From a virus, in IMG/VR virus record IMGVR_UViG_3300028822_000225, positions 1-55,818 of that record: a stretch of DNA of 55,818 nucleotides; one strand, 5' to 3'. Within the stretch, counting starts at the first letter, position 1. The number at the start of each line of letters is the position of its first letter. The translations under genes and the position numbers were made by a program. Of the stretch, positions 236-55,818 are shown piece by piece. The notes beneath the pieces are model-generated. The model worked only from the letters and a program-made list of their open reading frames with translations. It did no database searches and was not told the DNA's origin.

Positions 236-393
236 TGACAAAAGAAACACTACAATTCGAAATAAGTAATTTTTGTGATAACTGCAAAGAGTATGGAACA
301 GTTTATTATGATTACTTACTTGAAAAATATTGGTGTAAAAATTGTAAGAAAGAATCAAATAAAGATTTCACAACAAGGTATAGGAGAAAATGA
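235..393 (+). CDS. Small zinc-ribbon protein, 52 aa
   Basis: The ATG at 235 overlaps the previous stop, and the TGA at 391-393 overlaps the next ATG. Two cysteine pairs (CDNC near residues 14-17 and CKNC near 34-37), separated by a Tyr-rich stretch, form a typical four-cysteine zinc ribbon. The overlapping junctions on both sides and the paired cysteines support a real gene. Its role is unknown; small viral zinc ribbons often bind nucleic acid or protein. It is one of about ten such proteins in this genome. Confidence 0.75.
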   Translation: MTKETLQFEISNFCDNCKEYGTVYYDYLLEKYWCKNCKKESNKDFTTRYRRK

Positions 394-950
394 GAACATT
401 TGTGGTTTTAGGTGTTCCTCGTGGGGGAACAAGTATGATTGCTGGTTTACTTAGAATTTTCGGTATTCATATGGGAGATTATGTTGATGATACTAAACAT
501 GAGGCTCTTGAATTTGCTGGTTTAACTGTTGATGAGTGTATTGATTTGATTGAAATTAGGAATATTCGTGACGAAGATTGGGGTTGGAAGGAACCATGGA
601 TAGGTCTAATACTTAATGATATACATAATTCTTTTGCTAATCCACACTATATTTATATTTCAAGAGACTTAATTGCTTGTTTGAATAGTGATTTGAGACA
701 TAATGATACTTTTAAAGAAAGAGAGAACGCAGAGTCGTTTATCTGGAATAGGAACCTACACTTAGTTAATGAGATGAATAAGGTACTTAGATATGCAGAT
801 AAGAAACTACTATTGAGTTACGAGGAAAGTTTAAAAAGACCAGAAAATTTAATAGAACAACTTGAAACCTTTATTGGTAAAAAACTCTCTAAAGATAAGA
901 GGGAACAAGCAATTAAATTCATAAAACCAGGATATAGGAAAATAAAATGA
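390..950 (+). CDS. Sulfotransferase family protein (PAPS-dependent)
   Basis: The 186-aa protein begins with a beta strand followed by the PAPS 5'-phosphosulfate loop (PRGGTS, residues 10-15). It has the 3'-phosphate-binding strand motif ISRD at 90-93, the two hallmarks of the sulfotransferase fold. Members of this fold move sulfate from PAPS to a sugar, protein or lipid hydroxyl. It is shorter than typical carbohydrate sulfotransferases (about 250-300 aa), as is common in viruses. It lies upstream of a second sulfotransferase, a UDP-galactopyranose mutase and glycosyltransferases, so the acceptor is probably a surface glycan (inference). ATGA overlaps on both sides place it in one operon. Confidence 0.85.
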   Translation: MRTFVVLGVPRGGTSMIAGLLRIFGIHMGDYVDDTKHEALEFAGLTVDECIDLIEIRNIRDEDWGWKEPWIGLILNDIHNSFANPHYIYISRDLIACLNSDLRHNDTFKERENAESFIWNRNLHLVNEMNKVLRYADKKLLLSYEESLKRPENLIEQLETFIGKKLSKDKREQAIKFIKPGYRKIK

Positions 951-1102
951 AAAAAGCTAAATTTGGATGTGAACCATTATATAGGGAGGGAGACAAGTTT
1001 AGGGTTGTTAAAAAAAACAAAGACCCCAACCTTATGCCTATAGAAGCCCTACATTTGAGAACTAAACAAGTTTATGGATTTGAGGAGGATGAATTAGAAT
1101 GA
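947..1102 (+). CDS. Hypothetical protein, 51 aa
   Basis: The ATG at 947 overlaps the sulfotransferase stop, and the TGA at 1100 overlaps the ATG at 1099. The composition is basic in the middle and ends in an acidic tail (EEDELE) that also carries a GAGGAGGAT ribosome binding site for the next gene. No family is recognised. Confidence 0.6.
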   Translation: MKKAKFGCEPLYREGDKFRVVKKNKDPNLMPIEALHLRTKQVYGFEEDELE

Positions 1103-1287
1103 ATGAAAATAACTACTCAGGAGGAATTGGATTTTTAGGACTGCTTGGATTGTTATTCATAGGACTTAAATTAACTGGATACATTACATGGAGTTGGTGG
1201 TATGTGCTTATGCCTTTGTGGGGACCAATAGCGTTAGTAATATTTGTATTAATGATATTAATTGGGATAAATTTAATAAGGAGTTAA
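1099..1287 (+). CDS. Two-helix membrane protein, fragile-X-F-associated-like
   Basis: The 62-aa protein has two hydrophobic helices (about residues 8-30 and 38-60) separated by a Trp-rich segment WSWWYVLMPLWGP. Small two-helix phage proteins with a WSWWxVxxPLW core are usually annotated as transmembrane fragile-X-F-associated-like proteins; that match is from memory. Such proteins insert in the host membrane; their role is unknown. The start overlaps the previous stop (GAATGA) and is preceded by GGAGGA. Confidence 0.75.
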   Translation: MNENNYSGGIGFLGLLGLLFIGLKLTGYITWSWWYVLMPLWGPIALVIFVLMILIGINLIRS

Positions 1288-1288
1288 A

Positions 1289-1684
1289 ATGAGAAAAGGA
1301 AATTTCGTAAATTTAAATGATGCAATTCCACCTGAGGACCAAAAATTAAGAGATAGCGTTCAAAAAACTAAACACACGGAGGAAAAAGTTATGCAGACGA
1401 AATCAAGATACGAAGTAATCTCAGACCTTGAACAGCAAAAGAGAAATCTTATCAAGGAAAGAGATGGTCTTAAAGACGCTTTGAAAGAGAAGGAAAAGGA
1501 TATTAAGGACCTTGAGAGAAAGAAAAGCGATACTGTCTTGTATTTAGATAGACAGATTGAGGATGCCAAAGACGACCTTGAAAACTTCCAGAAAACACTA
1601 GAAGAAAGAAAGGAAACAATTAGTGAACTTATCAAGGGTGTTGATGAGAGTCTTCAAAGATTTAATGAAATGCAGCAGAAATAG
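1289..1684 (+). CDS. Coiled-coil protein, 131 aa
   Basis: The ATG follows the previous stop after one base. From about residue 30 to the end the sequence is almost entirely K/E/D/L/R with heptad-like leucines (DLEQQKRNLIKERDGL and similar), so a long coiled coil is expected. There are no cysteines, signal or catalytic motif. It is the last gene before a non-coding gap. Coding potential is convincing, the function unknown. Confidence 0.7.
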   Translation: MRKGNFVNLNDAIPPEDQKLRDSVQKTKHTEEKVMQTKSRYEVISDLEQQKRNLIKERDGLKDALKEKEKDIKDLERKKSDTVLYLDRQIEDAKDDLENFQKTLEERKETISELIKGVDESLQRFNEMQQK

Positions 1685-1689
1685 TTGCA

Positions 1690-1699
1690 TTTCTTTTTA
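1690..1699 (+). promoter_or_regulatory. Archaeal TATA box for the structured RNA at 1731-1837
   Basis: TTTTTATACT lies in the gap after the coiled-coil gene. Archaeal transcription usually starts about 25 nt downstream, near 1720, just before the predicted folded RNA begins. Inferred from position only. Confidence 0.45.
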
Positions 1700-1730
1700 T
1701 ACTCTTCAGAAAACAAAATCAAAAATTTGA

Positions 1731-1837
1731 CCCCCACCTGAGGAGATGCCCACTGTCGGGCTACCTTAATAAGATGGATAAGGTATAGTGCCTTAAACAG
1801 GTACATTTATATATCATAAATCGTTTCAAAGTGGGGG
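1731..1837 (+). ncRNA. Predicted structured RNA, three-way junction with alternative hairpins
   Basis: Complementary arms are nested: CCCCC (1731-1735) with GGGGG (1833-1837), and ACCTG (1736-1740) with CAGGT (1798-1802). They enclose two adjacent hairpins: GCCC/GGGC (1748-1751 with 1758-1761) and TACCTTA/TAAGGTA (1762-1768 with 1779-1785). The strand TAAGG (1779-1783) can instead pair with CCTTA (1791-1795), so two mutually exclusive forms exist, as in riboswitches. The GC-rich arms stand out in this AT-rich genome. A TATA box sits upstream and a second (1805-1815) lies inside the large internal loop, before the gene at 1853. I do not recognise a known RNA class. It could be a free ncRNA or a leader. 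Confidence 0.5.
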
Positions 1838-1852
1838 ATTCATACTCAAAAA

Positions 1853-2077
1853 ATGGACGAAGAATTTGCACAAGAACAGTTTAGAAAGTATTTGAAGAAA
1901 GTAGAAGAAATTTCGGATTTGAAAAATTATATTAAAAAATTAAAGAATACCATAACTGTTTTAGAAGAAGAAAACACAGAATTGAGGAAAGAAAATAAAA
2001 AAATGGGTAAAGAGATAGAAGAATGGATGAAAATATCTCCAAATTGCCATGCTGACCCAGATAGAAAAAATGAATAA
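1853..2077 (+). CDS. Coiled-coil protein, 74 aa
   Basis: First gene after the structured RNA. Residues 10-60 are a heptad-rich K/E/L helix with EEENTEL and RKENKK runs, typical of a coiled coil. A TATA-like ATTTATATAT (1805-1814) would give a start near 1838 and a leader of about 15 nt. No catalytic motif. Its last eight codons overlap the next gene. Function unknown. Confidence 0.65.
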   Translation: MDEEFAQEQFRKYLKKVEEISDLKNYIKKLKNTITVLEEENTELRKENKKMGKEIEEWMKISPNCHADPDRKNE

Positions 2078-2330
2078 AAAAGATAAAGAAAAAATAAAAA
2101 GACTAGCAGAAATCCTATATTTTGAAAAAGGAGTGGAGGAGATTAAATTTCTCCCCTTTCTTAGAAATGGCTATCCTAACTGGGTTAGTAAGTTATTTTA
2201 TAATCCAAAAAGAGATTATGTTGGTAAGTGGATAGAAGAAAAGGGAGAAGAAATTAAGGATATTATTTTTGCCTTAGCTGTTGAGGGAGATGTTGATTCT
2301 ATTTTAAGGGAGTTGGAAAAAAATGAGTGA
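2070..2330 (+). CDS. Hypothetical protein, 86 aa
   Basis: The frame is open further upstream, to an ATG at 2049. I prefer the ATG at 2070 (MNKKDKEKIKRLAEIL), which gives a shorter overlap with the preceding gene and a natural basic-helix N-terminus. The protein is mixed helical with no cysteines. Its 3' end overlaps the radical SAM start by 8 nt, indicating translational coupling. No family recognised. Confidence 0.65.
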   Translation: MNKKDKEKIKRLAEILYFEKGVEEIKFLPFLRNGYPNWVSKLFYNPKRDYVGKWIEEKGEEIKDIIFALAVEGDVDSILRELEKNE

Positions 2331-3336
2331 AATTTTTGGACAAGACAAGATATTTAGTCATGTAGATAAAATACACAATTGGCTAGAAGGAGACCCAAAT
2401 ACATTAATCACTATGGAGATGGACCCAACAGATAATTGTAATAACAATTGTCCAGGGTGTGCAGGGGGGAGAACAGGCCAATCATCCTTAACATTGGAAG
2501 AAATGACTGGTTACATTGACCAGATGAAAGATATTGATGTTAGAGGTCTTATTTTTTCAGGGGGAGGTGAACCCTTAGTTAATCCATCTACGCATAAGGC
2601 TATTTCTCATGCTAGAATGTCTGGATTGGATGTTGGTTTTATAACTAATGGTCTTGCTTTAAAAGAGGATTTATATGATACTCTCCTAAATGATTGTACA
2701 TGGATTAGATTTAGTTTAGATGCTGGAACCCCTGAGATGTATAAACAAACTCATGGGATGAATGAAAGAGCCTTTAATAAGGTTCTTGAAAACATTAGAG
2801 GGATTTCTAGTCGTAAAAAAGAAATTGGTTCTGATTGTACATTGGGAGTTGGTTATCTTGCAGGTAAGGAAACTTTGGGTGATATGGTTAATTTCGCAAG
2901 AATAAGCAGCGAATTAGGTGTAGACTATGCACAATTTAGACCCTTTCATAGAGACCGTACTTCAATAGCTCCAGAACTTGCTAAGTCAAAGAAATATGAA
3001 AGAGATGATTTCAAAGTACTTCATTCTGCACAGAAATATAAACATTTTTTAGAGGAAAACCCCAGACCATATAATGAATGTCATGGAGTTAATTTTGCTT
3101 CAGTAATCCAAGCTGATTCAAATTTGACTACTTGCTGTCACATGAGGGGGAAACCTAAGTATTACTTAGGCAATCTAAAAGAAAATACACTTAGGGAAAT
3201 ATGGGAATCGGATAAGAAAAAAGAAGTTTTTGAAAATATTGATTTTAATGATTGTGTTCCTTACTGTAGATGCGATTCGTTCAATAGGGTACTTTATGAT
3301 ATTAAACAAGAAAAGACACATAAGAATTTTTTATAA
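2323..3336 (+). CDS. Radical SAM enzyme with C-terminal SPASM-like cysteine cluster
   Basis: 337 aa. The radical SAM CxxxCxxC motif is at C39, C43 and C46, with the SAM-binding GGGEP at 80-84 after a hydrophobic strand. The C-terminal part carries C253, C271, C272, C311, C315 and C317 in a SPASM/twitch-like pattern that would bind auxiliary iron-sulfur clusters. SPASM enzymes modify peptides, sugars or cofactors by radical chemistry; the substrate here is unknown. Flanked by a sulfotransferase and UDP-galactopyranose mutase, so a glycan-related substrate is the simplest guess. The other main option is a peptide-modifying (sactisynthase-like) role, but no precursor peptide was seen. Confidence 0.9.
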   Translation: MSEIFGQDKIFSHVDKIHNWLEGDPNTLITMEMDPTDNCNNNCPGCAGGRTGQSSLTLEEMTGYIDQMKDIDVRGLIFSGGGEPLVNPSTHKAISHARMSGLDVGFITNGLALKEDLYDTLLNDCTWIRFSLDAGTPEMYKQTHGMNERAFNKVLENIRGISSRKKEIGSDCTLGVGYLAGKETLGDMVNFARISSELGVDYAQFRPFHRDRTSIAPELAKSKKYERDDFKVLHSAQKYKHFLEENPRPYNECHGVNFASVIQADSNLTTCCHMRGKPKYYLGNLKENTLREIWESDKKKEVFENIDFNDCVPYCRCDSFNRVLYDIKQEKTHKNFL

Positions 3337-3337
3337 A

Positions 3338-3907
3338 ATGATTTACTTTATACATATACCAAGAACAGGCGGTGGAAGTTTAACCAAAGCCATTGAAGAT
3401 AATAATGCGAACATTAAGAGAATAGGGCATAACACTTATAATCCAAAATGGAAATCCGCAAATGATATTTTGGAAGAAGAACAAGGGGCAGAGTTTTTTA
3501 CAATCCTTAGAAATCCTTATGATAGGATAATTTCTGTTTATAAGGCATTAAAGTTTAATCCGGGTACTAGTGATATGGAATTTTATAAAAAATATATGAA
3601 AAAATATAATAATATTAATGAATTTGTGGACGATTTGGATTTCTTAATTAAAAATACAAACAATCCCCACATTAAACCACAAACTTTCTTCATCCCAATG
3701 GAAGAATCGATAGGAATATTTTTTTATGAGAAGATGGAAATGCTTAAAGAATTTTTAGATATTTTTGATAGTAATATATTTAATTCTTTTAAAAGTGCTA
3801 AAAGGCATTTATCTCCTAAGAAAGATATTCAATTAAATGAGGAATCTAAAAAAAAGATAGCAAAGATTTATGAAATAGATTTTGCTTTCGGGGGTTATCA
3901 AAAATGA
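3338..3907 (+). CDS. Sulfotransferase family protein, second copy
   Basis: 189 aa from the ATG at 3338, one base after the radical SAM stop; a longer open frame overlaps that gene and is rejected. The N-terminus IHIPRTGGGSL (5-15) is the PAPS 5'-loop of the P-x-x-G-G type seen in membrane carbohydrate sulfotransferases. RNPYDRIISVYK (58-69) is the 3'-phosphate motif with the usual R-P-Y-R-S-Y spacing. It is not a recent duplicate of the protein at 390: the two share only the motifs. Predicted to sulfate a glycan. Its stop overlaps the next ATG. Confidence 0.87.
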   Translation: MIYFIHIPRTGGGSLTKAIEDNNANIKRIGHNTYNPKWKSANDILEEEQGAEFFTILRNPYDRIISVYKALKFNPGTSDMEFYKKYMKKYNNINEFVDDLDFLIKNTNNPHIKPQTFFIPMEESIGIFFYEKMEMLKEFLDIFDSNIFNSFKSAKRHLSPKKDIQLNEESKKKIAKIYEIDFAFGGYQK

Positions 3908-4908
3908 AATTTAAAATAATTGGAGCTGGGTTGACAGGGTTAACAATAGCTAGAATTATGCAAGATGCAGGACATAATGTTACTGTATTTGAGAAAGGTG
4001 AAAATATTGGTGGGCTTTGTAGAGATGTTAAAGAGAGAAAGTCAGGGGTTTGGTATAATCCACACGGAGTTCACATTATGCATTTCAGAGAATCAGATAA
4101 AGAGGCACTCTCATTCATTAAAAAACATGTTAGATTGATTAGTTACAATCACAGAGTCCTGATGCTTGGTAAGGGAACTTTTGGATATTTCCCTCCTAAT
4201 GAATTGTCTCAAGAATTATATAATATTACTAATCCCAGAGATTCTTTCTTTAAGGAATTCATAAAATCTTATTCTAAAAAAATGTGGGGATTAAAATGGA
4301 ATATAATAAAGAAGAAAATTAGTAATAGATTTGCTTTCCAGAACAAGAGAAATTATTCTTTCTTCGGAAGTGAAAAAGTCTTTGTACCAGAAAATTATAC
4401 TAAATTATTTGAAAACCTTTCTAAAGGAATTAAGATAAAATTTGGGAATAGGGTTGATGTTACAGACTACAAATTAGATAAAGAGAAATCTATTTATATC
4501 ATAACATCTCCAATTGATGAATTCTTTTTAAATTGTTATGGTAAATTGAGTTGGAGAGGTATAGAAATTGGAAATCATTTAATCAAAACGAATGAAAATA
4601 TTTTACCTGAAGCAGTAGTAAATACAAATAAACATCCTAAACTACTTAGAATGGTTGAATATAACCAATTACCTCATAATAGGAAAAGTACAGGATATAG
4701 TATAATCTCTTTAGAATATCCTTCTAAAAAAGAGAATCTTTGTTATCCTATCCCAACTAAAAGTAATGAACGAAAGTTAAATAAATACTTAGAGCTTTCT
4801 AAAAGTTATGAAGATATTTACTTTGTTGGGAGGCTTGGGGAATACAAGTATAAAAACATGAATGAAGCGATTGCAGATGCTATTAAATTTTGTGAGAAAT
4901 TCAAATGA
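3904..4908 (+). CDS. glf: UDP-galactopyranose mutase-like FAD enzyme
   Basis: 334 aa. The N-terminal dinucleotide loop is GAGLTG (7-12) with the acidic end of strand 2 (VFEKG, 28-32) and IGGLCRD (35-41). NPHGVHIMH (52-60) corresponds to the substrate loop (usually YGPHIFHT). A C-terminal GRLGEYKYKNMNEAI (about 309-323) matches the family's second FAD signature. The enzyme interconverts UDP-galactopyranose and UDP-galactofuranose, supplying Galf for glycans. Slightly shorter than the usual 367-390 aa. With glycosyltransferases downstream it points to a galactofuranose-containing surface polymer. The general FAD amine oxidase family is the alternative. Confidence 0.85.
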   Translation: MKFKIIGAGLTGLTIARIMQDAGHNVTVFEKGENIGGLCRDVKERKSGVWYNPHGVHIMHFRESDKEALSFIKKHVRLISYNHRVLMLGKGTFGYFPPNELSQELYNITNPRDSFFKEFIKSYSKKMWGLKWNIIKKKISNRFAFQNKRNYSFFGSEKVFVPENYTKLFENLSKGIKIKFGNRVDVTDYKLDKEKSIYIITSPIDEFFLNCYGKLSWRGIEIGNHLIKTNENILPEAVVNTNKHPKLLRMVEYNQLPHNRKSTGYSIISLEYPSKKENLCYPIPTKSNERKLNKYLELSKSYEDIYFVGRLGEYKYKNMNEAIADAIKFCEKFK

Positions 4909-4926
4909 GAACTAATATTCAGGGGA

Positions 4927-5008
4927 GTGTGCAGGAAGTAAAAACCTTGAAAAATCTTTCTAAGAAAGTTTCATTTATCGTTGGTGTATTGTTTCCTTCC
5001 TCGCACAC
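4927..5008 (+). repeat. Duplicated hairpin element, copy A
   Basis: GTGTGCAGGAAG (4927-4938) pairs with CTTCCT-C-GCACAC (4996-5008): 12 bp with one bulged C. The loop contains an internal hairpin, CTTTC/GAAAG closed by TGAAA/TTTCA (about 4949-4973). Copy B at 52217-52299 has identical arms and flanks (GGGAGTGTGC before, TTTAAAATGAAA after) but a different loop. Both copies can be read as short ORFs (here 4905-5018, 37 codons), yet the arms are in different frames in the two copies. The conservation is therefore of DNA or RNA, not protein. Each copy lies shortly upstream of a gene of the same paralogous family (5142 and 52340). Confidence 0.75.
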
Positions 5009-5019
5009 ATTGATTTAAA

Positions 5020-5145
5020 ATGAAAGATAAAAAAAGAAAAGAATTACTTGAATGGAAATATCATAAAGCATTACAACTTAAACAATATGATAGAGCAAAG
5101 GTGTATTTAAAATTATTAAAAGAATTGGAGGAAAAAGAAGAATGA
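5020..5145 (+). CDS. Small charged protein, 41 aa, ending in the LEEKEE joint
   Basis: ATG at 5020 directly follows the hairpin element. Basic N-terminal helix and acidic end LLKELEEKEE, whose DNA (5125-5145) supplies GGAGG and the ATGA overlap for the next gene. The same end sequence recurs at seven other gene boundaries. Probably a short helix; function unknown. Confidence 0.55.
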   Translation: MKDKKRKELLEWKYHKALQLKQYDRAKVYLKLLKELEEKEE

Positions 5146-5405
5146 GTAAAATAAAAACTATAAAAGATTTGAAAGAGGATATTATGTATTTTGATTTTAG
5201 AAAAGAAACATTTAAACACCCTCATTATAAAAGAAAAGATGAAGAAGAATTTAAAGAAAGATTTACAGCGGGAACGATGAATATAGTTTCAGTAGAAGAA
5301 CTAAAAGAAGAAGCAATTAAGTGGGTTAAGGAGTTTAGACATCAGGGGAATTGGGAAGAGAAGTTCATTCGTTTCTTTAATCTCACAGGGGAGGATTTGG
5401 AATGA
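5142..5405 (+). CDS. Paralogous family protein, KTLKDL / FFNxTxEDLE type, member 1
   Basis: 87 aa. Begins MSKIKTIKDLKED, has a central VEELKEEAIKWVKEF helix and ends FIRFFNLTGEDLE. The same three blocks occur in the proteins at 49775 and 52340, and the end block in the one at 9704. I recall similar proteins in archaeal metagenome data, but no function. Start overlaps the previous stop (ATGA) with GGAGG upstream; its own end carries GGAGGATTTGG before the next ATG. Conserved hydrophobic and acidic positions suggest a folded helical domain. Confidence 0.75.
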   Translation: MSKIKTIKDLKEDIMYFDFRKETFKHPHYKRKDEEEFKERFTAGTMNIVSVEELKEEAIKWVKEFRHQGNWEEKFIRFFNLTGEDLE

Positions 5406-6739
5406 AAACACTTGTAGTTGCTAAATATAATGAGGATACCAAATGGACAAGAGATTTTGAAAATGTAGAGATAATTCATAAGGGAGTGGATTTACCTAAT
5501 TTTGGAAGAGAACAACATACTTTCCTTTGGTATATTGTGAATAATTATGAGGAACTTAATGGATATTATTTCTTTGTTCAAGGAAATCCTTTTGACCATT
5601 GTGAGGATTTAAAGGAAGTTTATGAAACTCGTTTAGAAAAGAAATGGACACCTTTAGGGAAGAAACTGGGAAGTAAAAAAGGGGAACGTATTTGTGAATT
5701 GGATGGGAGACCACATCATGGAACAGGAAATTTAAAAATTAAAGAATTCTTATCAGATATTGGGATAAATTATAATCGTAATTTGATTAAATTCTATGCT
5801 GGAGGGCAATATTCTATTCATTCTAGTGAGATAAAAAAGAAACCGAAAGAATATTATGAAAAAGTTCTTAATTTATTTGATAAATATGGAGAAAAGGCAG
5901 GATATATCTTAGAAAGAGTTATGCAATTTGTATTTAATTGGAAGGAATTTGAACATTATGTTGTTACTAGATTTGCTTACCCAACCAATTATCCTTATTT
6001 TGAAGAGAGAAAAAGGATTTTCAAATTATTTTTAATTGAATGTTTAAAAGAACAGACTAATAAAAACTTTAAATTTATAATAATTGGAAACGATAAAACA
6101 CATGAATTAGAAGAAGAACTAAAAGGAATTAATTATCAAATCTTACATGAGGGCTTGGGATTTGTTAAAGAAAAACCTTTAGAAGTTTTCGACCTTCAAT
6201 GTAATTATCTTATAACTACAAGATTTGATGATGATGATTTAGTTCACCCAGAATTTGTGGGAAAGATTCAAGAATTATTCAAAAAATTAGATTATCTTTC
6301 TCCCTATGTAATAGATTTTAAGGGTTTTAGATATGATATGAGAAATCGTAAGGCCTATAAAGTTACTGAGTATGACCCTAGAACTGGTTGGGGAACTTCT
6401 CCTTTCTTAACTTTTGTTGAAAAAGCAGATATAGAAAACATAAAGACTTGTGTCTACCTTAAACATGGGCATATGGGACATAATTTCCATTTACACTATG
6501 TGGACCAAGAATATTGGATTCAGGTTGCACACCATCTTAACATTTCAAACAACAAATTGCCTCGCTTATTTAAATATCCTGAAGTTAAGGAAAGACTCTA
6601 TTTTTCTAAATATATAAAATTCTTACTTGAAAATTTTAATTTAGTTGATTATAGTGATGTTGTTATCACTAATGAATACTTGAAAAAGATTAAAAAAGAG
6701 AAGGATTATTTAGATAAAGAAATTACTAAAGAAAAATGA
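5402..6739 (+). CDS. DUF3431 domain fused to a putative rhamnosyltransferase-like glycosyltransferase
   Basis: 445 aa, two domains. Residues 1-180 start VVAKYNEDTKW and contain LPNFGREQHTFLWYI and FVQGNPFDH, the signature of DUF3431 proteins, found near glycosyltransferases. Residues 186-440 contain VVTRFAYP, the FKLFLIECLKEQTNKNF stretch and ITTRFDDDDLVHPEF (D276-D279), matching the putative rhamnosyltransferase family with a DxD-type metal site. The fusion implies that both parts act on the same glycan. It sits between a small family gene and a second glycosyltransferase, with overlapping junctions, in the glycan cassette. The donor sugar cannot be told. Confidence 0.8.
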   Translation: MKTLVVAKYNEDTKWTRDFENVEIIHKGVDLPNFGREQHTFLWYIVNNYEELNGYYFFVQGNPFDHCEDLKEVYETRLEKKWTPLGKKLGSKKGERICELDGRPHHGTGNLKIKEFLSDIGINYNRNLIKFYAGGQYSIHSSEIKKKPKEYYEKVLNLFDKYGEKAGYILERVMQFVFNWKEFEHYVVTRFAYPTNYPYFEERKRIFKLFLIECLKEQTNKNFKFIIIGNDKTHELEEELKGINYQILHEGLGFVKEKPLEVFDLQCNYLITTRFDDDDLVHPEFVGKIQELFKKLDYLSPYVIDFKGFRYDMRNRKAYKVTEYDPRTGWGTSPFLTFVEKADIENIKTCVYLKHGHMGHNFHLHYVDQEYWIQVAHHLNISNNKLPRLFKYPEVKERLYFSKYIKFLLENFNLVDYSDVVITNEYLKKIKKEKDYLDKEITKEK

Positions 6740-7608
6740 TAAGTGTAATTACTTGTGTTTGGAACAGAGAGAATGAAAGGATACAAAACTGTATAGATTA
6801 TTTAAAAGACCAAGTAGACGAGATAATAGTTGTCGATTATGGAAGTGATGAACCTATAAAAATTAATAATGCTAAAATAATTAGGTATGATAAAAATCCT
6901 GTATTTAATAAATCTCATGCACTAAATTTAGGAATTAAGGCTGCCAAAAATAAATTTATTATGTGTGTAGATTGTGATATGATTATTCCCGAAGATGTGG
7001 TTTCTGATATAAAAAACACTTTGATAGACGATGCAACTTTTATAATAAATACAAATGTTAATAGGATAAATAAGGGGGACATTGGTAATTGGGATAAGGC
7101 TTTCCCTTGGCATAAGGAAAATATTGGTATGAATCGTGCGAGGTCCTCTGCAAATGGGGGGATGCAAGTATTTTCAAAAGAATGGGTAGAAGAAATTCAT
7201 GGATATGATGAACAATTCATACTATTGGGATGTATGGATAATGATATGGTGAATAGGGCTGTTTTCAGTGAAATGAGAATAATTGATGTTAATATGCCTA
7301 TATATCATCAAGAACATGAAAAGAAGAAGGGAGATGTTTTTGGTAAAGAAAATGAGGAGAAAGTTAACTTTATCACAAACGAGAAACTGCATTACTACAT
7401 AGAAAAAACAAATAATATGATTGTAAAAAATCCAGGTCCTTGGGGAGAAGATGAACCAAATCAAGATAAATTCATAAGTTTATGGACTAATTGGGATGAA
7501 ACATTTCCTGCATTACAAGACAAACGTGAAAAAATGCTTCAAGAAATTAAAAATTTTATAATTGAAAAAAAAATACCTATAAAAAAAATGGATGTGAAAT
7601 GGAAATAA
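6736..7608 (+). CDS. Family 2-like glycosyltransferase (GT-A fold)
   Basis: 290 aa. The N-terminus ISVITCVWNRENERIQNCI is the start of a GT2 nucleotide-binding domain. CVDCDMII (77-84) gives the DxD metal and sugar-nucleotide motif (D79, D81). The GYDEQFILLGCMDNDMV stretch (about 155-171) resembles the C-terminal galactosyltransferase-type segment, with the ED/DN base region. Transfers a sugar from a nucleotide donor to a glycan acceptor; the galactosyl preference is a guess. Start overlaps the stop of the preceding gene. Confidence 0.85.
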   Translation: MISVITCVWNRENERIQNCIDYLKDQVDEIIVVDYGSDEPIKINNAKIIRYDKNPVFNKSHALNLGIKAAKNKFIMCVDCDMIIPEDVVSDIKNTLIDDATFIINTNVNRINKGDIGNWDKAFPWHKENIGMNRARSSANGGMQVFSKEWVEEIHGYDEQFILLGCMDNDMVNRAVFSEMRIIDVNMPIYHQEHEKKKGDVFGKENEEKVNFITNEKLHYYIEKTNNMIVKNPGPWGEDEPNQDKFISLWTNWDETFPALQDKREKMLQEIKNFIIEKKIPIKKMDVKWK

Positions 7609-7862
7609 AAAAGAGAAAATCAACCTATACTCTGGGGGAAAAGGTAAAATTTTACATAGCTCTTAAATTGAATAAAAACCCTGAATATTGTTGGATGAAT
7701 TTGGTTTTATGGGTATTAGGTTATAGAAGTTTTTGGAGTTTGTTTTTTAAAAATCACCCTGAAAATGATTATAAAGACCAATCTTGCAGAGAAGATAATA
7801 TTTATTGTCCTTATGCTTATTGTGGTAAATGTGAAGAAACAGGGAGGTTTTATAATAAATGA
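7599..7862 (+). CDS. Hypothetical Cys- and Trp-containing protein, 87 aa
   Basis: Overlaps the glycosyltransferase end by 10 nt and ends overlapping the next ATG. A hydrophobic stretch (YCWMNLVLWVLGYRSFWSLFF, about 30-50) could be a membrane-surface helix. It is followed by four cysteines (SCRED, YCPYAYCGKC) near 68-83 that may bind a metal. No family recognised. Its position between two glycosyltransferases suggests a role in the same pathway. Confidence 0.65.
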   Translation: MEIKKRKSTYTLGEKVKFYIALKLNKNPEYCWMNLVLWVLGYRSFWSLFFKNHPENDYKDQSCREDNIYCPYAYCGKCEETGRFYNK

Positions 7863-8518
7863 AAAAGAAAATCCTTATAGCAATCATAAGTAATAGAAGT
7901 GCTTGGTCTAAACATTTTTCTATGAGTTTGGTTAATTTAATCCATGAAACAAGAATGAAACACAACATTGAATGGATTAATGTTTCTAGTTGTGATGTTA
8001 ATTATATGAGAAATCGTGCATGTCTTATTGCTCAGGCTAAAGGGAATGAGGCTCGGGAATGGAATTATGATTATATTGTTATGTTAGATGATGACCACAT
8101 TTATCCTGAAGATTTCATTAATAAATTTGTGGATTATGATTTACCTGTAGTCACCGGATGCACTAGTCAAAGAACCCCCCCATACAAACAGACTCAATAT
8201 AAACAAATAAAAGGGATTGGGATGAAAGATGAAGAAAATATTGTTAATCCTAAAGAAACTGAGGGGTTAGTTCAAATAGATGCTAGTGGGCCTGTAGGGA
8301 TGTGTATTAAGACAGAAGTCCTTGAAAAAATGAAATATCCTTATTTCGAACAGATTAATCTAAATAATAGTCCAAGTATCCGTGGTGGAGATATTCAATT
8401 TTGTCAACAATTAAAAGAATTAGAAATACTTCTTTATTTGGATAGTTCAGTATCATTTCCCCATTGTGCGGGAGATACATTATATGCAGATAGAGGGCAA
8501 GTTCATTATCACCCATAA
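7859..8518 (+). CDS. GT-A glycosyltransferase-like protein, 219 aa
   Basis: Contains MRNRACLIAQAK (50-61), a Rossmann-like segment, then DYIVMLDDDHIYPEDF (71-86) with the DDD metal motif at 77-79. DASGPVGMCIKTEVLEKM follows in the acceptor half. This layout matches the short Anp1/GT2-like glycosyltransferases frequent in phages and archaeal viruses. It closes the glycan cassette. The C-terminus ends HYHP* before a non-coding stretch with inverted repeats. Sugar and acceptor unknown. Confidence 0.8.
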   Translation: MKKKILIAIISNRSAWSKHFSMSLVNLIHETRMKHNIEWINVSSCDVNYMRNRACLIAQAKGNEAREWNYDYIVMLDDDHIYPEDFINKFVDYDLPVVTGCTSQRTPPYKQTQYKQIKGIGMKDEENIVNPKETEGLVQIDASGPVGMCIKTEVLEKMKYPYFEQINLNNSPSIRGGDIQFCQQLKELEILLYLDSSVSFPHCAGDTLYADRGQVHYHP

Positions 8519-8752: not shown

Positions 8753-9043
8753 ATGTCTCAAAAAAAGTATTTAAGAACAAGTATTAACTTCGGAAAAAGA
8801 GGAGAATTATCTAGAGAAATTGTAGAGAAGATAATTAAGAAAAAAGGGAATGTGGGTCTCTCTGAAGAAATCAGGAAAGCACTTGTAACACACTTTTCGA
8901 ATAAGCCTGAGTTTAAGGAGGCTAAGATTAATTCCTTAATTGAAGAGAGAAAAAAGCTTCACAAAGAATTAAAAAACCTATCTGAGAAACTAAGTAATAA
9001 TGGGGATGATTTAGAAAAACTTGGATATGAGGTAGATTTATGA
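8753..9043 (+). CDS. Ribbon-helix-helix-like DNA-binding protein with coiled-coil tail
   Basis: 96 aa. A short N-terminal strand (YLRTSINFG) is followed by two predicted helices (ELSREIVEKIIKKK and GLSEEIRKALVTHF), the Arc/MetJ-like arrangement. From residue 60 a K/E/L helix (IEERKKLHKELKNLSEKL) could dimerise. RHH proteins bind DNA as dimers on short inverted or tandem sites, and tandem GTTGTGAAC sites lie just upstream of the start, so this is a likely autoregulator. Stop overlaps the next ATG. Confidence 0.6.
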   Translation: MSQKKYLRTSINFGKRGELSREIVEKIIKKKGNVGLSEEIRKALVTHFSNKPEFKEAKINSLIEERKKLHKELKNLSEKLSNNGDDLEKLGYEVDL

Positions 9044-9330
9044 GAGAGAAAAAAGAAAGGAAGAAAATATTTGAGAGTTGTGTTGGAAAAGGGAGAGTTG
9101 TAAAAGTGGAAGATGAGCATGAATCCTTTAGATTTTGGAATAAGGGAACAGTGCATAAACCCTGTTATCTTTTTCAAGATGGGAAGGGTGAGGAAAAAAG
9201 AATAATTGACCCTAATATTAAAGAAGGGGATGGACATATTATAGAGAATAAAGAAGTTTCAAATATTAAAAATGCTAAAGAAGTTTTTTCAAAAACAGGA
9301 AGTATACATGAAAATCATTATTTCAAGTAA
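9040..9330 (+). CDS. Hypothetical protein, 96 aa
   Basis: Start overlaps the RHH stop (TTATGA), so it is co-transcribed. The sequence is a mixed beta-type region (SCVGKGRVVKVEDEHESFRF, GTVHKPCYLF) followed by a charged half with two ENK/ENH segments. No recognised motif. Last gene of this transcription unit: a new promoter follows. Confidence 0.6.
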   Translation: MREKKERKKIFESCVGKGRVVKVEDEHESFRFWNKGTVHKPCYLFQDGKGEEKRIIDPNIKEGDGHIIENKEVSNIKNAKEVFSKTGSIHENHYFK

Positions 9331-9351
9331 TCACTATAAAGTTAATGGAAA

Positions 9352-9363
9352 GTTTTATAAATA
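9352..9363 (+). promoter_or_regulatory. Archaeal TATA box, leaderless promoter for 9383
   Basis: GTTTTATAAATA is centred about 25 nt before the ATG at 9383, so transcription would start at or very near the start codon. Confidence 0.7.
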
Positions 9364-9382
9364 AGTGTTTTTTTAATTAAAA

Positions 9383-9634
9383 ATGGGAGAGATAATTTTT
9401 GAGGAAAAAAGAACTTATTTAGATACTAAAACCTGTAGAAAATTAATCTTAGACTTCTTGAAATCAAATATGGAATGGAATAATACTAAACAAGTAGCTA
9501 ATAGCATTAAAGTAAATTATGTTACTGTGAAAAATCATTTGGAACACATGAGAGATTCTAACCAAGTAGAGAAGATGAATGTTCCTTATGGAAATAGGCA
9601 GATGACTTTATGGAAGGCAAAATTAAAGAAATAA
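9383..9634 (+). CDS. Winged-helix DNA-binding protein, 83 aa
   Basis: After an N-terminal strand, residues 18-60 (CRKLILDFLKSN, TKQVANSIKVNYVTVKNHLEHMRDSN) form a helix plus helix-turn-helix with a typical recognition helix. QVEKMNVPYGNRQMTLWKAK forms the wing. This is an ArsR/MarR-like small wHTH, probably a transcription regulator. It has its own leaderless TATA promoter. Confidence 0.75.
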   Translation: MGEIIFEEKRTYLDTKTCRKLILDFLKSNMEWNNTKQVANSIKVNYVTVKNHLEHMRDSNQVEKMNVPYGNRQMTLWKAKLKK

Positions 9635-9703
9635 AACATAATAGAGATAGAGAAATTCTTTAAAAGTAAAGAAAATAAAAATGTACAAATATAAATTAGA
9701 AAA

Positions 9704-9979
9704 ATGAAAACAATTAAAGATGTTAGTAGGATAGTACTAAACCATGATTTATATGATGCAGTAGATAATTATGAAATTAAAAGAATTGTTGTAGAAAATA
9801 TGAAACAAATCCTAAAGAATAACCCTGAAGTTGATATTGAACAAATAAAAGTAGTGGGTATTACAGAATCAGGTAAACTTCAATTTAAGGTTCCAGAGAC
9901 ATTTAAAAATAGGCAAGTAATTATTCTATTAGCTTATTTGAAATGGTTTTTTGATTTAAATGATGAGGATTTGAAATGA
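9704..9979 (+). CDS. Hypothetical protein, 91 aa, C-terminus related to the FFNxTxEDLE family
   Basis: Ends LAYLKWFFDLNDEDLK, resembling the end block of the proteins at 5142, 49775 and 52340, and begins MKTIKDVSRIV, like their KTLKDL start. The middle (VVENMKQILKNNPEVDIEQIKVVGITESGKLQFKV, quoted in part) is not shared. A small ORF of 8 codons ends at its start (AAAATGA). Function unknown; likely a diverged family member. Confidence 0.65.
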   Translation: MKTIKDVSRIVLNHDLYDAVDNYEIKRIVVENMKQILKNNPEVDIEQIKVVGITESGKLQFKVPETFKNRQVIILLAYLKWFFDLNDEDLK

Positions 9980-10536
9980 GTGAAAAAGTTAACCCTAGAG
10001 TTGGAAAAGATGCCAGGAATGTAAAAAGTACTAAAGAGAGGAAGAAAGTAATCCAATTAAGGAGTAAGGGAAAAACATGGGATGAGATTGCCAAACAAGT
10101 TGGTATAAATATTATGACTGCTAAAAAATATTATAATGAGGAGATGGGGATGAGTGTAACAATGAGTAAACCACATGGAAATTATTTTCAAAAACACCTT
10201 GAATATATGGAGGAAAGATATAGTGGGGTTGTTGAAACAACTGACCGTTTACACAATATGGCTAAAAAAGCAATAGATACTATAGAAGAACAAGATATTG
10301 ATGATGTTAGGACTTATGTTAAATTTATGAAAACAGCTCCTGTTATACTTCAAATTATTAGGGAAATACGTGAACAAATAGAGGGTCTTCGTAAGGAAAA
10401 TGGAGAAATTACTATGGAAATGAAAAAACGTATGCCAACACTTTCTGACTTCAACAAACAATTAAATGAGGCTATTATTACTTTACAAGAACAAGGATAT
10501 ATAGTAATAAAGAAACCACTCAATATAGATAAGTGA
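9976..10536 (+). CDS. HTH plus helical protein, candidate small terminase subunit
   Basis: 186 aa. Residues 20-52 (KERKKVIQLRSKGKTWDEIA, then VGINIMTAKKYYNEE) form a helix-turn-helix of the kind found at the N-terminus of phage small terminases. The rest is long helices (EYMEERYSGVVETTDRLHNM, LQIIREIREQIEGLRKENGE) suited to oligomerisation. No other small-terminase candidate is clear in the genome. It is on the opposite strand and about 27 kb from the large subunit, so it may instead be a regulator. Confidence 0.45.
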   Translation: MSEKVNPRVGKDARNVKSTKERKKVIQLRSKGKTWDEIAKQVGINIMTAKKYYNEEMGMSVTMSKPHGNYFQKHLEYMEERYSGVVETTDRLHNMAKKAIDTIEEQDIDDVRTYVKFMKTAPVILQIIREIREQIEGLRKENGEITMEMKKRMPTLSDFNKQLNEAIITLQEQGYIVIKKPLNIDK

Positions 10537-12746: not shown

Positions 12747-12873
12747 TAGAACTTTTTGTAATTTTATAGTTAATAGAAATGTTTATATATTTCAAGATAT
12801 TTATTATAATACCTCTTTTTACTTGGGGGAGGGTATAGTTCCCACTAGAGGAATTATAATCTCTCTCAAGTTT
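12747..12873. other. Gap between tRNAs and the end of the leftward virion operon
   Basis: No gene seen. It contains GTTTATATATTT (TATA-like, + strand, about 12780) and a G-rich/C-rich pair (GGGA near 12830 with TCCC near 12840) that could form a weak hairpin. A frame open across 12739-12975 on + covers the tRNA end and is rejected as coding. Confidence 0.4.
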
Positions 12874-13020
12874 TTATTGATGAGATTTTTTCCATTGCTG
12901 TACAGCAATAGCATACCTTTGAGAACTATCTTGGAATTCTTTTATCATCGCTTGATTTGCCATAAACCTTGCTAAGAAAGAATCCCTATCCTCATTTGGT
13001 TTTGGTTTCAATAAAGGCAT
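12874..13020 (-). CDS. Small virion-module protein, 48 aa, phage MPLxKPK...QW type
   Basis: Translation of 13020 down to 12874 gives a protein starting MPLLKPKPNEDRDSFLARFM and ending with an EFQD...QRYAIAVQQWKK segment. The order (MPxPKPxxxE, then FxxRxM, then EF...QR.AVxxxQW) is a recurring small domain in phage head and tail operons, sometimes fused to prohead proteases; that match is from memory. It is the last gene of the leftward operon and would be missed by a 60-codon cut-off. Codon use matches its neighbours. Function unknown. Confidence 0.65.
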   Translation of the reverse strand: MPLLKPKPNEDRDSFLARFMANQAMIKEFQDSSQRYAIAVQQWKKSHQ

Positions 13021-24272: not shown

Positions 24273-24312
24273 CCGAGTTTATTTTGCTCTCCTGAGCTAA
24301 TAATTTATAGTT

Positions 24313-24339
24313 TTATAACTTTATAAAAGTTGTTATACT
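24313..24339 (-). promoter_or_regulatory. Shared promoter module, copy 1 (27 nt, identical at 37256)
   Basis: On the minus strand this reads as a TATA box, CTTTTATAAAG, next to GTATAACAA. The 27 bases are identical to 37256-37282. It overlaps the stop of the head closure gene and serves the tail terminator gene. Confidence 0.6.
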
Positions 24340-34473: not shown

Positions 34474-35525
34474 CTTAATTTCGCTTGACTCAACAGCATT
34501 TCGGCGAACTCTGCATCTCCTTTTGAATAACCTTTTGGAATCTTCACTGTGTTATCTACGACAGACATAGATTTCACATCTTTCTTTTTAGAAAGATTTT
34601 CAGAAGACTCTTCTTCCTTCTTCTCTTCTTTTGGTTCCTCTTGAGATTCAGAAAGTTTAGCTATTTTTTCTCCAAGAGACTTGAGTTCTTTTATAACGAG
34701 ATTTAATTTAGAACTTAATTCTTCTGATTTGTCTTCAGATTCTTTCCCTGATTCTTCTGTTGTTTCTTCCTTAGATTCCTCTTCAGAATTTTCAACAGTT
34801 TCTTCTTTGGGTTCCTCTTTAGACTCTTCAGAAGGTTGTTCTATAACTTCATCTTTTTTCTCGTCTTCCATCTTCTCTGTTAAATCTTGACCCCCTTTCA
34901 TCTCTGTTGATTCTGATTCATCTTCCATATCCTCTTTTTTCTTTTTCTTCTTTTTTTCCCAATATTTTTTCTCATTTGTTTCTCCCCCAATTGATTCTCC
35001 TGAAACTCCTCCAGAACTTGTTACAGATAATTCCATTGGTTTTACTCTCATAGTTTTTTCTTCTTTTAATTTTTCAGATAGGTTGATATAAGCATTTTTA
35101 CATGCAGGGTCATAGACTACAGAAAAGTTAGCAAATTTTTTAATATTGAAATTTCCATCATCATCTTCTACACCAAGAACTCTGGCAGAAACACCTAATT
35201 TAGCACCACCTTTTACTAATTTCAATGCAAGGTCTTTATCCCAAATTTCCAAATCTCCCACAAGTTCCCCGCTGTCAGTCACCTCTAAATTAAGAACATT
35301 CCCTAACCAATTAGTTGCTCTTTCTTCGTGTTCATAAATAAGTGCATAATTTTTCTTATCGCTCCAATCTGTTAATTCAAAACCCTCTTTAATACTATTA
35401 GCAGTAAAGTTTAATCCATTCCATTTTCCTGGGGTTAATAATGTTTTTCCTTTTAGAATTACAGGTAATTTCAACTCGTTTTGTTCAACTTCATATTCTT
35501 GCTTTGCTAAAGTCATTTCTTGCAT
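34470..35525 (-). CDS. Prohead protease fused to an acidic scaffold
   Basis: 351 aa from the ATG at 35525, 26 nt after a TATA box; a GTG six codons upstream is possible. Residues 10-160 are a U9/S78-like protease: IYEHEERATNWLGNV with H66, and KLGVSARVLG with S113 as likely catalytic pair. From about 180 the chain is made of K/E runs (KEETVENSEEESKEETTEES) and a short coiled coil, the removable scaffold. The two functions in one chain are common in tailed viruses. Confidence 0.8.
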   Translation of the reverse strand: MQEMTLAKQEYEVEQNELKLPVILKGKTLLTPGKWNGLNFTANSIKEGFELTDWSDKKNYALIYEHEERATNWLGNVLNLEVTDSGELVGDLEIWDKDLALKLVKGGAKLGVSARVLGVEDDDGNFNIKKFANFSVVYDPACKNAYINLSEKLKEEKTMRVKPMELSVTSSGGVSGESIGGETNEKKYWEKKKKKKKEDMEDESESTEMKGGQDLTEKMEDEKKDEVIEQPSEESKEEPKEETVENSEEESKEETTEESGKESEDKSEELSSKLNLVIKELKSLGEKIAKLSESQEEPKEEKKEEESSENLSKKKDVKSMSVVDNTVKIPKGYSKGDAEFAEMLLSQAKLR

Positions 35526-35546
35526 AAAAAAATTAAGTTTCACTCC

Positions 35547-35593
35547 TTTATAAAATTTGTTATAGTTTTATAACTTTATAATATTATAACAAA
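35547..35593 (-). promoter_or_regulatory. Promoter with palindromic upstream element for protease/scaffold
   Basis: CTTTATAAAA (35547-35556, minus-strand TATA) is 26 nt from the ATG at 35525. Just upstream, TTTGTTATA (35556-35564) and TATAACAAA (35585-35593) form a 9-bp inverted repeat around TTATAACTTTATAA, which is also present in the other promoter modules. Confidence 0.6.
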
Positions 35594-36963: not shown

Positions 36964-37241
36964 TATTTAAACCTTATGGACCTAATCCATTTAACTAATT
37001 TAGTTTCTAGAAGATATATTGTAAACCCGTATCCTACAAAAGAGTACCATGTGAAAGGATTTCTGAAAATAACAAAAATAGCTAAACTAGACATCCCTCC
37101 AAATAAAATAACTTGCCCAATTATGTTAAAAATAACTTTCCTATCTTGTTCATCTAATTTAAAAATTTTAATATTTTTTAAGAAATTAGTGGATTTTTTC
37201 CATTTTTTCTTTAATTTTTTCCAAATTTCATTAAATTTCAT
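36963..37241 (-). CDS. Two-helix membrane protein, 92 aa
   Basis: A basic N-terminal part (KKLKKKWKKSTNFLKNIKI) is followed by helices at about 37-58 (VIFNIIGQVILFGGMSSLAI) and 66-84 (TWYSFVGYGFTIYLLETKLV). It sits between terminase and portal, an unusual place for a membrane protein. It has its own leaderless promoter. It could hold packaging at the membrane; function unknown. Confidence 0.65.
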   Translation of the reverse strand: MKFNEIWKKLKKKWKKSTNFLKNIKIFKLDEQDRKVIFNIIGQVILFGGMSSLAIFVIFRNPFTWYSFVGYGFTIYLLETKLVKWIRSIRFK

Positions 37242-37255
37242 AAAAAATAATAGAA

Positions 37256-37282
37256 TTATAACTTTATAAAAGTTGTTATACT
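37256..37282 (-). promoter_or_regulatory. Shared promoter module, copy 2, for the 36963-37241 gene
   Basis: The same 27 bases as 24313-24339. Minus-strand TATA CTTTTATAAAG (37262-37272) is centred 26 nt before the ATG at 37241. It overlaps the terminase stop. Confidence 0.7.
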
Positions 37283-39739: not shown

Positions 39740-39961
39740 TTAATCCTTCTTTTGTGGAAAGCCTTTAGCTTCTCTTCCAAGTTCTTCAAGTTTTGATTCA
39801 TCATAAACCTCAAACATATCATAGTGAAATTCTTTATAATAAGGACAATCATAATTGTTTGGGTGATTATCTGAGTAATCTTTAGTACAACCCTTACAGT
39901 AATTTAGAAATCTATTTAGGCAAGTCTTTTCCCTATCCATAAAAATTAAAGGGTTTTCCAT
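39740..39961 (-). CDS. Small cysteine-rich protein, 73 aa
   Basis: MDREKTCLNRFLNYCKGCTK and NNYDCPYYKEFH give four cysteines and one His in a possible metal site, followed by an acidic helix. Upstream of the nucleotidase gene. No family recognised. Confidence 0.6.
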   Translation of the reverse strand: MENPLIFMDREKTCLNRFLNYCKGCTKDYSDNHPNNYDCPYYKEFHYDMFEVYDESKLEELGREAKGFPQKKD

Positions 39962-39974
39962 TTTATAAATGTTA

Positions 39975-40481
39975 TTATACTTCTTTATATGAAACTTTTA
40001 TTTTTCCTTTTTCCTTAAATTTAGATGCTATTAAGAATTTGGAGCAGTAATTATTGTTTAAGTAAAATAGGGCTTTTTCTTTTTCTTCTTTATCTAAGTA
40101 TCCATTCGTTTTACATTCTACGAATATTATTTCATAATGCTTATATACTAATTGTTCCCCATATTCTCCTTCTTCAAATTTACTTTTTAGTACCTTTTTT
40201 TGTAATATATAAGCGATAAAATCTGGAAACCCTGTTTGCATCATTCTAAACCTTCCTGGTTTAGCTGGAACGAGTTTTCCTATTTTCACTTCTTTACCTG
40301 TTATATCATAAACTTGATGTTCATATCCTGTTAGGTCTTTTTCTTTCTGTTTTATAAATTCCACATTATTACCCCAACGGCTAACTATCCAACCTTTTAA
40401 CTCAAGGTTTTCTCTAACTCTTCTTTCAAAGTCTGCTCCAGAGCGTTTATTTTTTTTTCCTTGTTTAACTTTATCTACCAT
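39975..40481 (-). CDS. PD-(D/E)xK nuclease, VRR-NUC / Hjc-like
   Basis: 168 aa. GADFERRVRENLELKGWIVS (about 14-33) gives the first acidic residue of the fold and an archaeal Hjc-like start. TGFPDFIAYIL has the catalytic D, and IIFVECKTNGYLDKEEKEKA has ExK. The combination is that of archaeal Holliday junction resolvases and VRR-NUC nucleases, which cut branched DNA. In a virus this would serve resolution of replication or packaging intermediates. Confidence 0.75.
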   Translation of the reverse strand: MVDKVKQGKKNKRSGADFERRVRENLELKGWIVSRWGNNVEFIKQKEKDLTGYEHQVYDITGKEVKIGKLVPAKPGRFRMMQTGFPDFIAYILQKKVLKSKFEEGEYGEQLVYKHYEIIFVECKTNGYLDKEEKEKALFYLNNNYCSKFLIASKFKEKGKIKVSYKEV

Positions 40482-50131: not shown

Positions 50132-50697
50132 GTGAAGAAAGCATTGTAAGTCAAATGAAGAAAGAATATGAGGGAGAAATAAAAACATTTGAAGAATGGA
50201 CTAAAATTCTTGCAGAAAAATTAATTGGAATAAAAATAATAACTTCAAATAAAGTTAAGGCGATAAGAACTGAGCGAGAGAGAAATAAAAGATATTTGAG
50301 CGAGAGAGAAATAAAAGATATTAAGTTTAGATTTAAAAAAATGAAAGATAAAATCAAAGAAAAGTTAGAGAAAGAGATTGAAGAAATTAAACCAATAAAA
50401 ATGATTATGGTTTGTGATGAAGTTGGTTGTGCTTCAAATAGAGAGGGATTTTGTCAAAGAGCAATAAAATGTGATGGAAAAAAAGGAGATATTGATTACA
50501 AGAGGGTGATTAAAACAAAACAATTAGAACAACACGAAGAAACAAAAAAAGCAGAACGAGAGAGGATTAGGGAGATAGCAAGAAGGCTTAATGATAAGTT
50601 CAGAGCAGATAATACTCCTCAAACATTAAGTGGTGATGAATTTAATGATGTTTGGGAAGAAGAATTAATAAAAAAATTGGGAGAAAAAGAAGAATGA
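50128..50697 (+). CDS. Fused small protein, 189 aa, formed by a 26-nt tandem duplication
   Basis: Residues 1-57 (MSEESIVSQMKKEYEGEIKT...) and 72-189 look like two former genes. The second part starts MKDKIKEKLEKEIEEIKP, as do the separate proteins at 51919 and 53541, then has CDEVGCASNREGFC cysteines and HEETKKAERERIREIARRL, shared with them. The joint TERERNKRYLSEREIKDIKF is read from the repeat 50271-50322 in two different frames. With a single repeat unit the first frame would stop (TAT TAA). It ends with the GGAGAAAAAGAAGAATGA joint. Confidence 0.7.
   Translation: MSEESIVSQMKKEYEGEIKTFEEWTKILAEKLIGIKIITSNKVKAIRTERERNKRYLSEREIKDIKFRFKKMKDKIKEKLEKEIEEIKPIKMIMVCDEVGCASNREGFCQRAIKCDGKKGDIDYKRVIKTKQLEQHEETKKAERERIREIARRLNDKFRADNTPQTLSGDEFNDVWEEELIKKLGEKEE
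50271..50322 (+). repeat. Exact 26-nt tandem duplication joining two reading frames
   Basis: 50271-50296 is repeated exactly at 50297-50322. Since 26 is not divisible by 3, the second copy is read in another frame and removes a stop codon. Confidence 0.95.
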
Positions 50698-50918: not shown

Positions 50919-51022
50919 AAACAAAAGTATATGAAAAAATTGATGAAGAAGGGAAAAAGATAATATACTACGACCCTTTTAGACAATTTATAGAAGAAGA
51001 ATTGGAGGAAAAAGAAGAATGA
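50915..51022 (+). CDS. Short protein, 35 aa, ending in the LEEKEE joint
   Basis: MKTKVYEKIDEEGKKIIYYD then PFRQFIEEELEEKEE. A strand pair followed by a helix; the final bases carry GGAGG and ATGA for the methyltransferase gene. Confidence 0.52.
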   Translation: MKTKVYEKIDEEGKKIIYYDPFRQFIEEELEEKEE

Positions 51023-51929: not shown

Positions 51930-52194
51930 AATCAAAGAAAAGTTAGAGAAAGGTTTAGATTTACTTAAACATGTAGAAGATTATGATTTTGACGTCTTTA
52001 GTGAGAATGCTGAACTTTTGGAATATACACACTTTCAAGGAAGATTAAAACAACACGAGGAAACAAAAAAAGCAGAAAGAGAGAGATTTTTAAGATTGAT
52101 AGAACGACACGAGTTTGAACACGGGGATTTTCAAGGACTAATTATAAGTTCTGTAGAATTATTAAAAAAAGAATTGGAGGAAAAAGAAGAATGA
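51919..52194 (+). CDS. MKDKIKE / HEETKKAERER family protein, 91 aa
   Basis: Starts MKDKIKEKLEKGLDLLKHVE, has LKQHEETKKAERERFLRLIE and ends VELLKKELEEKEE. The first and third blocks occur in 50128 and 53541 as well. Basic/acidic helices. The GGAGG joint (52174-52194) ends it, followed at once by hairpin element copy B. Confidence 0.65.
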   Translation: MKDKIKEKLEKGLDLLKHVEDYDFDVFSENAELLEYTHFQGRLKQHEETKKAERERFLRLIERHEFEHGDFQGLIISSVELLKKELEEKEE

Positions 52195-52216
52195 AAAGAG
52201 ATAATACTCAAAGGGA

Positions 52217-52299: not shown

Positions 52300-52339
52300 A
52301 ATAATTTAAAATGAAAACACTTAAAGAGATAAAGGAAAA

Positions 52340-55724: not shown

Positions 55725-55818
55725 ATAAAGAAAAAACAAAAAAACTTTATTTAAGAGAACTAAAGATACCCAGAAAATTTACTTATGATGTTTCTTTAGA
55801 TATAATTGAAAAAGATTA
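55675..55818. repeat. Terminal direct repeat, right copy
   Basis: Identical to 1-144. Contains the start (55721) of the 62-aa gene that is complete at 47-235. Confidence 0.95.

Follow-up and report, generated by a model that had tools for sequence, protein, structure and literature searches.

Two copies of a hairpin with identical 12-bp arms, at 4927-5008 and 52217-52299, were found in a single virus record of 55,818 bases (IMGVR_UViG_3300028822_000225; the window, meaning the whole stretch of DNA that was analysed), and we consider it plausible that they are a putative regulatory structured element. Our preferred reading, to which we give a probability of about 0.38, is that of an mRNA hairpin, lying between cistrons and acting in cis, that would set translation initiation of the ORF behind it. 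The 12-bp stem would fold and take out ~82 nt, bringing the GGGGA or GGGA at its 5′ foot to 11 nt from the ATG past its 3′ foot and producing a split Shine-Dalgarno (SD) site comparable to those of T4 genes 25 and 38; initiation would be possible with the stem intact, and a ribosome arriving from upstream, or a bound factor, would alter the effect. All three parts of this reading are inferred from the sequence: that the element works as RNA, that translation is its target, and which way the effect runs.

The genome is probably complete and terminally redundant, as indicated by a 144-bp terminal direct repeat (1-144 = 55675-55818), and it encodes an HK97-type major head protein, a portal, and a large terminase. 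Among annotated phages, an archaeal tailed virus, represented by two records, was the only match to the terminase (23% identity), and TTTATAAA, which resembles archaeal promoters with their TATA box, lies ~20-30 nt ahead of the ATG in several minus-strand genes; the terminase matches and this promoter-like motif suggest that the host is probably archaeal. A common motif with TTTATAAA was located 5′ of minus-strand genes at 24298-24339, 35525-35566, 37241-37282, and 39940-39981. One relative (G003) has a 76% identical terminase and syntenic structural genes, and a strain fragment (G001, 99.8% identical) spans only 18.5-39.2 kb and is thus uninformative on the hairpin element. The gene content also includes a run of surface and modification genes at 390-8518 (sulfotransferase-like, radical SAM/SPASM, UDP-galactopyranose mutase, and glycosyltransferases) and, at 52780-53130, 18-nt tandem repeats within a gene (52645-53541) whose product is a YdcK-type beta-solenoid protein.

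Table 1. Coordinates of the two hairpin copies and of the features around them in the window
Feature	Position	Strand	Basis
5′ arm of copy 1, GTGTGCAGGAAG	4927-4938	+	sequence, fold
57-nt loop of copy 1; initial ~14 nt common to copy 2	4939-4995	+	
3′ arm of copy 1, CTTCCT-C-GCACAC, bulged C	4996-5008	+	sequence, fold
5′ arm of copy 2	52217-52228	+	sequence, fold
58-nt loop of copy 2; two additional pairs, TA/TA, lengthen the stem	52229-52286	+	
3′ arm of copy 2, bulged C	52287-52299	+	sequence, fold
GGGGA, SD-like, touching the 5′ foot of copy 1	4922-4926	+	sequence, layout scan
GGGA, SD-like, touching the 5′ foot of copy 2	52213-52216	+	sequence, layout scan
11-nt spacer ATTGATTTAAA and ATG of next ORF, copy 1	5009-5022	+	
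ORF behind copy 1, 41 aa	5020-5145	+	
11-nt spacer AATAATTTAAA and ATG of next ORF, copy 2	52300-52313	+	
10-codon ORF behind copy 2, overlapping the start of the next gene	52311-52343	+	
KTLKDL/FFNxTxEDLE family gene downstream of copy 1	5142-5405	+	
KTLKDL family gene downstream of copy 2	52340-52648	+	
37-aa ORF spanning copy 1, start overlapping the upstream stop; translation uncertain	4905-5018	+	
37-aa ORF spanning copy 2, good GGAGG; frame differs from that of copy 1	52191-52304	+	

The identity of the arms, which the first-pass annotation had reported together with the single bulged C, was borne out in full (25/25 nt between the copies, bulged C included), and the stem consists of two 6-bp helices around a single 1-nt bulge (Table 1). 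The exact arms occur at these two places only in the window; with up to two mismatches allowed, the 5′ arm had one additional, unpaired match at 2457 (mean in shuffles, 1.51) and the 3′ arm had no additional match in the window (mean in shuffles, 0.27). The copies are homologous over the whole element of ~115 nt, from just past the upstream stop codon to ATTTAAAATG at the next start (74.4% identity over 129 blastn columns; E = 7e-15, calculated for a small local set). A covariance model built from both recovered only these two in the window (124-126 bits), the next match reaching 17.6 bits once their reverse complements, at 17.5 and 23.7 bits, are set aside. They lie ~8.4 kb apart on the terminally redundant genome, in the same orientation and both ahead of a gene.

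Conservation sits in two blocks, GGGAGTGTGCAGGAAGTAAAnACnTTGAnA and CTTCCTCGCACACAnTnATTTAAAATG: the stem, the bulge, GGGA, the 11-nt spacing, and ATTTAAAATG are kept in both copies, while most of the loop has drifted. The loops had been described as different, which does not apply to their first ~14 nt (TAAAnACnTTGAnA), common to both, and does apply to the remainder, which is weakly alignable, 20 of 500 shuffles scoring equally well; in the inner loop, ~40% of aligned positions differ. Under drift of this kind, 25 unchanged arm bases would be very unlikely (~0.6^25, an estimate), which points to stems that are under constraint or repeatedly converted. All 12 paired positions are invariant between the two copies, with no compensatory changes seen, and the invariant sequence hints that something may also read it, either a protein or a hidden AGGAAG constraint. 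Conservation as nucleic acid and not as protein, as originally proposed, was upheld by the identity of the arms, by the differing frames of the 3′ arm, and by indels ahead of the loop and within it. RNA fold z-scores were −1.1 for copy 1 and −4.4 for copy 2, so energy alone would have missed copy 1.

Genes in this operon mostly overlap, and few are more than 100 nt apart; the elements fill two of these rare gaps, of 111 and 116 nt, and behind each comes, as had been noted, a short ORF with a KTLKDL gene after it (Table 1). In both, the ATG starts exactly 11 nt past the 3′ foot of the stem, and there is no SD within 20 nt before ATG 5020 or ATG 52311, an absence qualified by the lack of an SD in about half of the listed genes. 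The commonest arrangement in SD-bearing genes is GGAG or GGAGG 10 nt ahead of the ATG, in agreement with the folded spacing. When both strands were scanned for an SD-like sequence, a stem, 7-13 nt, and an ATG, the two copies ranked first and second (16.2 and 14.2), with the next in the window at 12.0 and 11.4. Among 189 stems from the window and G003, an SD was present at the foot in 9 and an ATG at 7-13 nt in 36, rates from which ~1% would be expected to have both by chance; none of the stems in six Markov shuffles had both.

In T4, folding shortens the spacing from 27 to 11 nt in gene 25 and from 22 to 5 nt in gene 38 (PMC3014915). The elements described here share with these intercistronic sites the order of SD-like sequence, hairpin, and start codon, with the SD-like sequence directly 5′ of the stem and the start codon 3′ of it in both copies; their folded spacing of 11 nt is that of gene 25, within the functional T4 range of 5-11 nt (PMC3014915); and they have no alternative SD near the start codon (20 nt), which is also true of many genes of this virus. 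They differ in that the hairpin is much larger (82 nt), has a fixed stem sequence and a bulge, and is present in two copies in one genome, that of an unrelated, probably archaeal virus; no homology is claimed. Literature searches turned up no direct precedent for split ribosome sites outside T4, nor for structured RNAs in archaeal tailed viruses. Structured translation control is, to our knowledge, little described in archaeal tailed viruses, and if the hairpin does assemble a ribosome-binding site, then the T4 solution would have arisen elsewhere too. Nature supplies a ready-made test pair in these two copies, whose loops differ, and even with no role at a ribosome site they would still be a clear case of two stem halves that stayed identical despite drift of the intervening loop.

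Several findings count against a split site. The copies are homologous, so their layout is a single observation kept twice; pairing would suffice for such a site, with no fixed stem sequence needed, yet no compensatory change was seen; the ORFs behind the copies are short and unlike each other; and G003, for all the similarity of its terminase, is without the element. The main rival, which we regard as unlikely, makes the stem a cover rather than a bridge: it would hide the AGGAAG (4933-4938, 52223-52228) of a small hydrophobic ORF (23 and 25 aa) that starts at TTG 4947/52237 and ends at the next ATG, and translation from upstream would open the hairpin and so couple the genes. This reading draws on the frames through the element. 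The arms had been said to fall in different reading frames, which is true of the 3′ arm and of the ORFs that start with ATGA, but the 5′ arm can be read in one shared frame from GTG 4929/52219 or TTG 4947/52237; GTG 4929 and TTG 4947 lie in frame within the ORF at 4905-5018, with AGGAAG 8 nt before the TTG. That AGGAAG-8 nt-TTG arrangement is conserved, the shared 5′ block stops just past it, and the frame is open up to the next start in both copies. Read from the GTG, it gives MQEVKTLKNL in copy 1 and MQEVNTLRAI in copy 2, resembling the KTLKDL N-terminus, and a shortened family gene may therefore be what the element is or descends from. Among the 2807 start-codon 10-mers of the window, MQEVKTLKNL was the best match after the three true family genes (34 vs. 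47-48; next, 28), and MQEVNTLRAI, with a score of 25, was among the best 10, although this comparison was post hoc, made after the sequence had been seen. Past their first residues, however, the peptides diverge completely, the frames of the 3′ arm differ, the SD-like sequence is merely 1-2 nt from the GTG, and T-rich loops would yield hydrophobic residues anyway. The split-SD and SD-hiding readings predict opposite outcomes of stem breakage.

A further alternative, less likely again, is that the fixed stem and its bulged C are read by a partner, either as an operator for a viral RNA-binding protein or as an endonuclease processing site between cistrons, such that the translation or stability of the downstream message would be controlled in trans. 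Protein-bound translational operators of phages are stem-loops before or at a start codon with a sequence-conserved stem and a bulged base, and the element is like them in its position, its conserved stem, and its bulge, but differs in its long variable loop. Such recognition accords with a stem whose sequence and pairing are both unchanged while the inner loop drifted, with the one bulged C kept, and with two sites ~8.4 kb apart in the same orientation and at the same place ahead of a gene; it is countered in that no candidate binding protein was identified and that neither an Rfam family nor a third site was found. On the sequence evidence we prefer the split ribosome-binding site to both the leader ORF with a hidden SD and the protein-read hairpin. 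A composite of these ideas seems doubtful, though less so than either rival: a virus-specific RNA element of a probably archaeal tailed virus, in which a factor would read the fixed stem and folding would assemble or hide the ribosome-binding site of small accessory genes, making it an SD site, split or switchable, beyond the T4 group.

Two explanations that give the hairpin no role in translation both appear improbable. One is a DNA-level element (a site of recombination, a cassette site, or an old miniature mobile unit), as might be suspected because the two copies are dispersed, keep their ends while varying in the middle, and lie amid shuffled small genes that share junctions; the copies are, however, always in the sense orientation ahead of an ATG, no transposase or integrase was present among ~30 proteins scanned, and the diverged loops indicate no recent movement. 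Integron attC sites likewise lie between genes and are imperfect inverted repeats with a variable middle and an extrahelical base, but the element lacks their GTT/AAC core boxes, has a single bulge, and does not form an array, and no integrase was seen; attC was rejected on the stem ends of the element, which are GTGTGC/GCACAC and not R boxes with AAC/GTT cores. The other is a functionless remnant of an old segmental duplication with arms equalised by gene conversion; both copies do lie ahead of related genes in a region rich in duplicated pieces, but conversion would have had to hit two separate blocks of ~13-26 nt while sparing the intervening loop, and the kept blocks coincide exactly with the two stem halves. 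Also rejected were an intrinsic terminator, since no T-run follows the stem; programmed bypassing, since the upstream gene has a stop codon ahead of the element; a CRISPR-type repeat; and the archaeal bulge-helix-bulge splice motif, which has two 3-nt bulges and a 4-bp helix where the element has one 1-nt bulge and two 6-bp helices.

The first-pass annotation had also proposed that the element is mobile and travels with the KTLKDL family, and neither proposal held. In IMG/VR, the exact arms gave no third copy, the 16-mer GTGTGCAGGAAGTAAA gave 7 matches with the second arm in none, relaxed arms (GTGTGCAGG..CCTCGCACAC, inner part free) gave 2 chance matches (L028 and L029), and arms with the inner part fixed and the outer part free gave 59 matches with no true copy, one of which pairs 6 more bases but is GC-rich and unrelated. 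GTDB genomes had no exact arms, blastn of both copies against annotated phages returned weak partial matches only, and Rfam, at gathering and permissive thresholds, returned nothing credible and no family above the gathering threshold. The suggested search with a covariance model for copies with compensatory arm changes yielded none in 20 records carrying a related terminase or a KTLKDL gene, where the top score of 17.5 bits was noise that lacked the stem. Because these scans rely on exact sub-patterns or kept sequence, wholly changed stems in unrelated viruses could escape them. A MITE-like miniature mobile element, for which multiple near-identical copies in related genomes would be expected, was rejected, there being no third copy in the collections scanned.

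Members of the KTLKDL family were present at 11 further viral loci and on 2 MAG contigs, and the proteins downstream of the two copies are 37% identical. The third family gene in this virus (49775) has no comparable upstream hairpin, and the best upstream stems at the family genes tested (49775 and those in other contigs) scored 7.8-12.0, within a background whose 95% point is 13.2, vs. 14.2 and 16.2 for the copies; the association is thus with these two genes and not with the family. The element may hold a shortened or decayed family start, which may explain the KTLKDL neighbourhood better than a travelling hairpin would. Among the small genes, which are otherwise unlike one another, the junction AATTGGAGGAAAAAGAAGAATGA recurs (5117-5145, 50676-50697, 50997-51022, 52165-52194, 52548-52570, 52623-52648, and 54050-54078); it encodes the C-terminal ELEEKEE of one gene's product while supplying the next gene with its ribosome site and start, which suggests cassette shuffling at these shared junctions.

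Other structured regions were observed in the window. In a 168-nt gene gap, 1725-1850 is predicted to fold strongly (−39.7 kcal/mol, z −3.0) into a GC-rich multibranched structure, closed by CCCCCAC/GTGGGGG, just ahead of ATG 1853; it has no Rfam match and may be a structured RNA of its own. Another region with strong hairpin potential (z −3.5) is 12800-12925, behind the two tRNA genes (Ala and Asp); it includes a long stem around ACTTGGGGGAGG/TCTCTCTCAAGT. Small perfect hairpins of the GGGCTACGCCC, GCCTTCGGC, and GGCTACGCC types are clustered at 55600-55700, at the end of a DNA methyltransferase gene, and a denser set of small perfect hairpins is found at 29-30 kb of G003 (L016, around 9000-10000).
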